From NCBI RefSeq assembly GCF_026248685.1, contig NZ_CP111036.1, forward strand, positions 372,001-436,000: a DNA stretch of 64,000 nt, read 5' to 3'. This document shows, piece by piece, positions 1,378-4,400 of the stretch. This DNA is from Haladaptatus caseinilyticus (GTDB lineage Archaea > Halobacteriota > Halobacteria > Halobacteriales > Haladaptataceae). The notes below the pieces were generated by a model. The model saw only the letters and a list, made by a program, of their open reading frames with translations. It did no database searches and was not told where the DNA came from. The position numbers and the translations under genes were made by a program. Positions within the stretch are counted from its first letter, which is position 1; each line of letters opens with the position of its first letter.

Positions 1378-2271
1378 ATGGCAGATATCATCGACGGGAA
1401 CGCGGTCGCCGAACGGATTCGAACTGACCTCGGTGAGAGCATCGGGGTACTGAAAGATGCGGGTGTTACACCGGGATTGGCGACGGTCCTCATGAGCGAC
1501 GACCCCGCGAGCGAGACCTACGTTTCGATGAAACAGCGCGACTGTGAGGAGGTCGGGATCAACGGCATTCACGTCGAAATCGATCCCGATGCACCCGCCG
1601 AAGAGTTGTACGACACCATCGACGATCTGAACGCCGACCCCGACGTTCACGGAATGCTCGTCCAGATGCCCGTCCCCGAGCACGTCGATTCGCGAAAGGT
1701 CATCCGAGCCATCGACCCGGCGAAGGACGTGGACGGCTTTCACCCCGAAAACGTCGGAATGTTGGTTGCGGGACATCCACGGTTCAAACCGTGCACGCCC
1801 CACGGCGTGCAAAAGCTCCTCGAATCGGCGGACGTAGACCCCGAGGGCAAGGACGTGGTCATCGTCGGTCGGTCGAACATCGTCGGCAAACCGCTCGCCA
1901 ACTTGCTCATTCAAAAGGCCGATGGCGGAAACGCGACTGTCACTGTCTGTCACTCCCGCACAGACGACCTCGCCGCAAAAACTCGTGACGCGGACGTGGT
2001 CGTCGCGGCCTGTGGGGTTCCGGAACTCATCGACGGTTCGATGCTCTCGGAGAACACGACCGTCATCGACGTCGGCGTCAACCGTGTGGATGCCGATACG
2101 GAGAAAGGGTACGAACTCGTCGGCGACGTGGACTTCGGCAGTGCGAAGGAGAAAGCGAACGCGATTACGCCGGTGCCGGGCGGCGTCGGACCGATGACTC
2201 GAGCGATGTTGCTGTACAACACGGTGAAAGCCGCCGGTCAGCAGGCCGAAATCGAAGTTGTACTGCCGTAG
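1378..2271 (+). CDS. folD: Bifunctional methylenetetrahydrofolate dehydrogenase / methenyltetrahydrofolate cyclohydrolase
   Basis: Cytosolic folate enzyme that oxidises 5,10-methylene-THF to methenyl-THF and hydrolyses it to 10-formyl-THF. Length is 297 aa, normal for FolD. Family motifs seen: ASETYVSMKQRDCEEVGI with the catalytic lysine, the DVDGFHPENVG loop, the Rossmann segment VIVGRSNIVGKPLANLL, and PVPGGVGPMTRAMLLYNT near the C-terminus. It lies downstream of glyA, which makes its methylene-THF substrate. The ATG at 1378 aligns with the normal N-terminus. Confidence 0.97.
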   Translation: MADIIDGNAVAERIRTDLGESIGVLKDAGVTPGLATVLMSDDPASETYVSMKQRDCEEVGINGIHVEIDPDAPAEELYDTIDDLNADPDVHGMLVQMPVPEHVDSRKVIRAIDPAKDVDGFHPENVGMLVAGHPRFKPCTPHGVQKLLESADVDPEGKDVVIVGRSNIVGKPLANLLIQKADGGNATVTVCHSRTDDLAAKTRDADVVVAACGVPELIDGSMLSENTTVIDVGVNRVDADTEKGYELVGDVDFGSAKEKANAITPVPGGVGPMTRAMLLYNTVKAAGQQAEIEVVLP

Positions 2272-2319: not shown

Positions 2320-3327
2320 TCAGTTGCCGATATCGACGAGCGCCTGCCACGTGTTCGGCCCGACGATACCGTCCACTGCGATACCCGCGCTGGACTGGAA
2401 GCTCTCGATGGCACTTTCGGTTTCCGGACCGTAGTAACCGTCTACGGCGATACTGTAGCCCTCGTCGTAGCGCAGGTGGTGCTGGGCGGCATACGTCGCC
2501 CAATACGGGTCGTTGTTTGCGTCCTGGACGGTAACGACGAGTTCGCTCCACGTGTTCGGGCCGACGACGCCGTCCACGCTGAGCCCGTTGGCGGACTGAA
2601 AACTTTGGACGGTGTTCGTCACTTCTGAGCCGTAGATCCCGTCGTGGTACTGGATGTCGTAGCCGTGTTCTTGAAGCAGATACTGGATGGAGTAGACGGC
2701 CTCACCCTCATCGCCGTTCGAGTAAATCGGCCAGCTGTACGAACCGCCACCACCGCCGCCACCGAAATCAATGTGGTCCGCAAGCGAATTCATCACGTCG
2801 CGGATACCTTCGGCCCAGCTGATGTCTGTTGCGTAGTCCTGATTCATGCCCCGAAGCGTCGGCCCGTACGACGAGTAGTAGTGGTCGCCGCCGGGGGTCA
2901 AATATTCGTCCCGTATGACCGGCATGACCTGTCGAATACACTGTGACTTCGTGGAGAACGATTCAGCACAGGAGTACGGACAGCTATCGTAGGCTTTCCA
3001 GCCGTAGATGTTGTTCTTGTCCTGTGCAATGTTGCTGGTTCCCCATGCCGACTCCCACGCGGCATGGGCGGCCATATACACCGGATTGATACCTTCTTGA
3101 TAGCTGACGTCGATCCACGTATCGCCGAGCCCGATGAGCGGGCTGTCGGATCGAACCTGTCGAATCGCATAATCGAGGTCACCGCCGGAGATGTCCTCCG
3201 TATTCGTGAGATCGCTATCGATGGAGTATCGTGCTGCAGCACCCGTGCTGGATAGCGCTCCGAGACTACCGATGGTCGCGATGCTCGTAGTTGCGCCTTT
3301 GAGGAACGTTCGTCGTGAATAGTCCAT
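2320..3327 (-). CDS. Tat-exported glucosaminidase-like peptidoglycan hydrolase with two peptidoglycan-binding domains
   Basis: 335 aa. Residues 1-33 form a Tat signal with motif SRRTFLKG and an alanine-rich end. Residues about 51-188 resemble the GH73/endo-beta-N-acetylglucosaminidase fold (lysozyme-like), with AAHAAWESAWGTS around the likely catalytic Glu92 and NNIYGWKAYD after it. Three cysteines (116, 120, 130) could form a disulfide. A run of seven glycines (189-195) links to two PG_binding_1-type repeats (about 205-264 and 275-331), each ending DGxVGPNTW. Expected action is cleavage of glycan strands outside the cell. Haloarchaea have no peptidoglycan, so a bacterial wall is the likely substrate; this is inference. 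The function could also be self-directed on a surface glycan. Confidence 0.88.
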   Translation of the reverse strand: MDYSRRTFLKGATTSIATIGSLGALSSTGAAARYSIDSDLTNTEDISGGDLDYAIRQVRSDSPLIGLGDTWIDVSYQEGINPVYMAAHAAWESAWGTSNIAQDKNNIYGWKAYDSCPYSCAESFSTKSQCIRQVMPVIRDEYLTPGGDHYYSSYGPTLRGMNQDYATDISWAEGIRDVMNSLADHIDFGGGGGGGSYSWPIYSNGDEGEAVYSIQYLLQEHGYDIQYHDGIYGSEVTNTVQSFQSANGLSVDGVVGPNTWSELVVTVQDANNDPYWATYAAQHHLRYDEGYSIAVDGYYGPETESAIESFQSSAGIAVDGIVGPNTWQALVDIGN

Positions 3328-3437: not shown

Positions 3438-4154
3438 TTAGTCGATTCGACCGAGCCGTTCGCGTGCACTCACTATCCCATCCTCGTCGCCCTCTCGAAC
3501 GGAGCGCGCGAGCTCGCGCGTCGTCTCGATGAGTATGCTCGTCGTTTCGATATCCAGCCCACCTTCGAGAGCACGTGCGCGCCTGACGTGTTCGCCGAGT
3601 GTTTCGAGCGTGTTTCGCCCGGGACGGCTCACCTCGTGTTCCCGCACCCAGTCGCTCATCTCCTGATAGTAATCGTGGAGTGCTTCCGCATCGGCGAGTC
3701 CGCGAACGTCGTGCATGGACTGCGGCACGTCCTCGATTGGGGGACGCTCTCCTGCGTCTGCTTCGCGGAGCAGTGAGAGGAAGTACAGTTCCTCGTCGTC
3801 GGCTATCTGGAGCGTTCGAGAAAACACGTCCGACGCGTGGCGCAGCTCCTGTGCCGCGAGATATCGATCGTCCAACGGGCGGAGCTCTCCACCCTTGATG
3901 AACCCGCGTTTTCTGACGTACTCGCCTGCTGCATCCGCCGCCAGCGTAGCGACTTCCCGCAGGGGTTCCGAATCGACGGCCTCACGTGCGTTCGACAGTT
4001 CGAGGGTCACGGGACTATCCGTGTGCTGGACCCGGTTATCTTCGAGTCCGACGCTCCGCATGCTTTCACAGTTCGGACAGGCGACGCTTCCCGTCTCGTA
4101 GTACGTCCACCGTGTCCCACAGCTTTGGCACTCGCGGGTTCCACGAACCTTCAT
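3438..4154 (-). CDS. Zinc-ribbon protein with helical C-terminal domain (haloarchaeal, DUF7117-like)
   Basis: 238 aa from the ATG at 4154. The frame is open further upstream, but those codons lack haloarchaeal composition, and MKVRGTRECQSCGTRW is a natural N-terminus. Residues 9-30 hold a four-cysteine zinc ribbon (CQSCG and CPNCES). The rest is alpha-helical and acidic, with no catalytic motif that I recognise. Function unknown; a nucleic-acid or protein-binding role is possible from the ribbon. Confidence 0.8.
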   Translation of the reverse strand: MKVRGTRECQSCGTRWTYYETGSVACPNCESMRSVGLEDNRVQHTDSPVTLELSNAREAVDSEPLREVATLAADAAGEYVRKRGFIKGGELRPLDDRYLAAQELRHASDVFSRTLQIADDEELYFLSLLREADAGERPPIEDVPQSMHDVRGLADAEALHDYYQEMSDWVREHEVSRPGRNTLETLGEHVRRARALEGGLDIETTSILIETTRELARSVREGDEDGIVSARERLGRID

Positions 4155-4322: not shown

Positions 4323-4400
4323 ATGTCGAGTGATGCTCACTCCGAGGATAGAGTAAGTCGCCCCGTGGCGGCTGGTCGAGAAATCCTCGACGACGGATAG
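4323..4400 (+). CDS. Possible 25-residue micro-ORF
   Basis: ATG at 4323, ending REILDDG before TAG. The peptide is acidic like haloarchaeal proteins, and a TATA-like atttatg lies about 31 bases upstream. It could be a real microprotein, the remains of a longer gene, or chance. It sits between a divergent gene and the next gene on the plus strand. Confidence 0.25.
   Translation: MSSDAHSEDRVSRPVAAGREILDDG

Follow-up and report, generated by a model that had tools for sequence, protein, structure and literature searches.

A predicted secreted peptidoglycan hydrolase of the Danwoldo type in Haladaptatus caseinilyticus, with the history of its locus and tail

Haloarchaea have no peptidoglycan. 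What use, then, would one of them have for a secreted enzyme that cuts it? The question is raised by a gene in the 64,000-nucleotide stretch of Haladaptatus DNA analysed here (the window), which a sequence-only reading had taken for a peptidoglycan hydrolase aimed at bacterial walls. Archaeal enzymes of this sort matter in that they show archaea to be capable of preying on bacteria or fighting them, and the window hydrolase extends the published case of Danwoldo to Haladaptatus. The new details are modest: a conserved locus, M23 paralogs, an exchange of tails and a LytB-like fold.

Gene architecture and family membership

The gene proved to be a single open reading frame, from ATG to stop, exactly where it had first been noted (Table 1). 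Intact orthologs with 91, 85 and 84% identity are present in three congeners; therefore, the frame is a real gene. The Tat signal claimed for it stands in part: the twin-arginine motif MDYSRRTFLKGATT is there, read by eye, but the Pfam TAT_signal score of 13.6 lies below the cut-off of 22.7, so that the call rests on the motif. The glucosaminidase-type domain, likewise first seen in the letters, was recovered by Pfam as PF01832 (Glucosaminidase; residues 70-182, E 8.5e-16, 59.2 bits against a gathering score of 30.2), and the glycine linker is followed, as had been claimed, by two PF01471 (PG_binding_1) matches, above cut-off and at 3.5e-33 overall. Pfam found no M23 domain in the protein. The mature hydrolase is acidic (computed pI 4.07; 42 D/E against 11 K/R), a composition that would fit work in brine. 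Upstream of the gene, a TATTTTA element and ATTATAAAGATTAA, partly conserved across four congeners, are suggestive of a promoter and make a candidate for it; a scan with a sigma-70 promoter model, which is not meaningful for archaea, gave no match.

Table 1. Features of the hydrolase gene and its neighbours, in window coordinates.
Feature	Position	Strand	Basis
Whole gene, predicted secreted peptidoglycan hydrolase, Danwoldo-type (NCBIfam NF052335), 335 aa	2320..3327	-	
Signal region, residues 1-33, twin-arginine motif SRRTFLK	3229..3327	-	Sequence; Pfam TAT_signal below cut-off
GH73 (PF01832) catalytic domain, residues 33-188	2764..3231	-	Pfam; model pLDDT 96.1; best PDB match LytB
Glu92 codon, predicted catalytic acid	3052..3054	-	Aligned with LytB Glu585 via mutant chain 7pj4
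Glycine linker, residues 189-195 (GGGGGGG, Gly7)	2743..2763	-	Sequence
Wall-binding tail, residues 198-335, two PG_binding_1 repeats	2323..2736	-	Pfam; common to M23 and amidase proteins
folD, convergent neighbour, marker of the conserved locus	1378..2271	+	
Zinc-ribbon gene, other flank, start at MKVRG; adjoins folD where the hydrolase is absent	3438..4154	-	

Whether this family member was known had been left open by the sequence-only reading; it is. The protein scores 658.5 bits against the NCBIfam equivalog NF052335 (cut-off 500), with residues 2-332 covering positions 1-330 of the 330-position model, and it has the architecture of that family, namely a signal (by motif, the Pfam TAT model being below cut-off), a glucosaminidase domain and two PG_binding_1 repeats. 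Against NF052336, the M23 model of the Woldo type, it reaches 289 bits, through the tail only, where 500 are required. Since the protein already has a name through a public equivalog model, we regard it as a further case of an already known family; the concept is in print, as is a close relative, and the window hydrolase leaves that concept unchanged.

The name of NF052335, in the style of HSB1_29560, and its domain layout point to Danwoldo as the founder, and NF052336 is probably the model of Woldo. Danwoldo of Halogranum salarium B-1 (J2ZJU5; probably HSB1_29560) is described as a glucosaminidase with two PG_binding_1 repeats and a Tat signal (Strock et al., PLoS Biol 2025, PMC12352652). The window protein shares with it the Tat signal, the one PF01832 and the two PF01471 domains and the haloarchaeal class, and both presumably fall at full length under NF052335; it differs in belonging to another genus and in that its activity is predicted. 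Woldo of the same strain (J2ZZK6; probably NF052336) has a related PG_binding_1 pair and a twin-arginine signal, and the window genome itself holds two Woldo-type genes, but the catalytic part of Woldo is an M23 peptidase, not GH73. A relative in Halogranum rubrum is 65% identical to the window hydrolase, and no folD or zinc-ribbon match was found within its 5 kb flanks. Our literature search for Haladaptatus and peptidoglycan hydrolases returned no such report, only a paper on a different antagonism.

The predicted catalytic domain

Glu92, the E of HAAWESAWG, had been proposed as the probable catalytic residue. The top phmmer match in the PDB is pneumococcal LytB (E 1.4e-18; E 1.4e-40 with a profile built from 18 relatives), and the column of Glu92 is that of the catalytic Glu585 of LytB, where the mutant chain 7pj4 (LytB E585Q) shows Q. 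In LytB, no acidic residue other than Glu585 proved essential for catalysis, which argues for substrate-assisted catalysis (PMC4633669). Glu92 is invariant across 18 archaeal and viral sequences (model position E60).

A full-length model from six sequences was poor (pLDDT 46) and was not used; it was replaced by an AlphaFold2 model of the catalytic domain alone, with 18 sequences (pLDDT 96.1, pTM 0.92). The model predicts a GH73, lysozyme-like fold, in which Glu92 is residue 60, the last of the third helix (50-60); the catalytic glutamate of GH73 enzymes is expected near the C-terminal end of that helix. Foldseek against the PDB gave LytB E585Q (7pj4) as the best match (TMq 0.82, E 6e-9), followed by LytB 7pj3 and 4q2w and then by autolysin E of S. 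aureus and other GH73 enzymes. A predicted fold that did not place Glu92 in a glycosidase site would have told against the sequence-only reading; since LytB is the best PDB match and Glu92 ends the third helix, the proposal came through this check. Beyond the GH73 fold and the catalytic Glu, the two proteins share the motifs KNN(F/I)(F/Y)G and GMN..YA.D. They differ in that identity is about 32%, and that LytB carries other modules and separates daughter cells of its own species.

Locus history and exchange of tails

The order folD, hydrolase, zinc-ribbon gene is shared by four Haladaptatus species (that of the window, H. pallidirubidus, H. litoreus and G003) and recurs outside the genus, within the family, in G012, G018 and the MAG SW_6. 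In five congeners (G001, G002, G004, G005 and G008) the site is empty and folD adjoins the zinc-ribbon gene. These arrangements would be explained most simply by an old insertion that was inherited vertically and lost repeatedly; separate insertions at the same site are less likely. The GH73 domains of G018 and SW_6 cluster with Halogranum rubrum and not with Haladaptatus (tree support 94/95), which leaves room for some exchange. Across the class the distribution is patchy, with matches to the hydrolase query in 20 of 391 genomes, catalytic-domain matches in about 11 and both parts in four; it is patchy also in the survey by Strock et al. (PMC12352652). A hydrolase gene of this kind can, it seems, sit in the chromosome for a long time and still be lost often. 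The G012 member at this locus (L007) is diverged, at about 45% identity, and its frame as read has no recognisable signal peptide.

Also in the window, an Rfam leuA-Halobacteria RNA motif was found at 4337-4389 (+) with 62.3 bits, not obviously before leuA. It overlaps a short open reading frame at 4323-4400, MSSDAHSEDRVSRPVAAGREILDDG, which is conserved at the protein level in congeners (MSS...SEDRVSR..A.GREIL), and what the motif marks here may be a short coding or leader sequence.

Apart from the hydrolase, PG_binding_1 occurs in this genome only in a tandem pair of M23 proteins (G000:C1, about 1672057-1674189), both above the NF052336 cut-off with 568.6 and 571.7 bits, whose tails are related to that of the hydrolase. 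A related tail is also found on an Amidase_2 protein of congeners. In H. litoreus, the two halves of the hydrolase (L004) have different affinities: the catalytic half has 94% amino acid identity to the G003 ortholog, whereas the tail shares 79% with this ortholog but 96-98% with the M23 paralogs of H. litoreus and G003. At the DNA level the tail is 93% identical to the species' own M23 paralog (L015) and 81% to the G003 ortholog. Sliding windows over the first part of the tail give 97-98% nucleotide identity to the own paralog, where the G003 ortholog reaches 74-82%; identity to the paralog falls to 86-87% near the 3′ end.

The natural reading of this pattern is gene conversion or recombination between paralogs, of which H. 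litoreus would be a clear natural example. According to a proposal by Strock et al., catalytic domains have been replaced repeatedly on one kind of tail (PMC12352652), and the exchange in H. litoreus would be that shuffling viewed from the tail side. It is tempting to propose, though we would put it at somewhat less than an even chance, that Haladaptatus keeps a modular wall-cutting set (glucosaminidase, M23 and amidase) on one kind of tail, recombination exchanging or homogenising the tails and several chemistries being directed to the same wall target; the exchange behind this proposal is one natural case, that of H. litoreus.

Two further observations concern C-terminal parts. In the haloarchaeal GH73 proteins L009, L017 and L027, a different C-terminal part, which looks SH3-like and bears no Pfam name, replaces the PG_binding_1 pair; GH73 proteins of this build are found in some congeners. 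On the chromosome of H. pallidirubidus, a glycosyltransferase-like open reading frame continues without a frame break into the final 44 residues of a PG-binding tail (L022, G007:C1:2830102-2830233; junction ...VVPNSISVDGYYG...), probably a leftover from the deletion of an M23 paralog.

Likely role and its alternatives

Archaea are without peptidoglycan (PMC12352652), and the substrate of the enzyme would have to be met elsewhere. Very probably, in our view, the protein is a Danwoldo-type GH73 endo-beta-N-acetylglucosaminidase which would be exported by the Tat route and would cut the walls of bacteria living in the same brine, either weakening or lysing them or setting wall fragments free as food. 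Its export, bond specificity, target range and ecological use are what we infer; the bond expected of a GH73 glucosaminidase would be GlcNAc-beta-1,4-MurNAc. Danwoldo, with the same domains, was detected in the culture supernatant of Halogranum salarium and, expressed in Haloferax volcanii, kills the halophilic bacterium Halalkalibacterium halodurans; the passages of that paper on these proteins report a catalytic-mutant control for Woldo, not for Danwoldo (PMC12352652). Because this nearest assayed protein is secreted and bactericidal, action against the bacterial wall, as first suggested, is supported as the best reading.

Is killing its purpose? The enzyme might serve chiefly to obtain carbon and nitrogen by digesting the peptidoglycan of dead bacteria, killing being incidental. 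We consider this unlikely, yet a serious competitor: archaeal genomes with peptidoglycan hydrolases more often carry Opp-type uptake genes, and Strock et al. leave the choice between killing and feeding open (PMC12352652). The stable chromosomal locus across the family, away from plasmids, fits nutrition as well as warfare. However, Danwoldo kills living cells, and repeated loss and tail exchange also fit conflict.

In principle, PG_binding_1 domains may bind glycans of other kinds. The target could be the glycoprotein coat of the producer or of a rival archaeon: PF01832 takes its name from mannosyl-glycoprotein endoglucosaminidases, and archaeal surface layers are glycosylated. Given two peptidoglycan-binding repeats, LytB as the best structural match, and M23 peptidase and amidase paralogs bearing the same kind of tail, which is sensible for a peptide-linked wall, this is highly improbable.

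Least credible of all is a viral remnant or cargo endolysin, although the nearest matches of the catalytic domain outside archaea are GH73 sequences of Bacillota and phages, for example gp588 of Bacillus phage G at 38-40% identity: we rejected it on the lack of any phage record covering 80% of the hydrolase and on the family-wide synteny with folD and the zinc-ribbon gene, and haloarchaeal viruses meet no peptidoglycan to lyse, while the protein has a twin-arginine signal. The endolysin gp588, which is also the best viral match of the domain model (rmsd 1.1), resembles the hydrolase in the GH73 domain only and serves in phage lysis.

The homolog search with a tree that had been suggested was carried out on 32 GH73 domains. 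Those from haloarchaea, 18 in number, fall together in a single clade (99/97), which lies among sequences of Bacillota and phages; bacterial sampling in this tree is thin, from plasmids and phages only. A scan of viral contigs with archaeal-only rows returned no relative, and one seeded with phage G returned 17.
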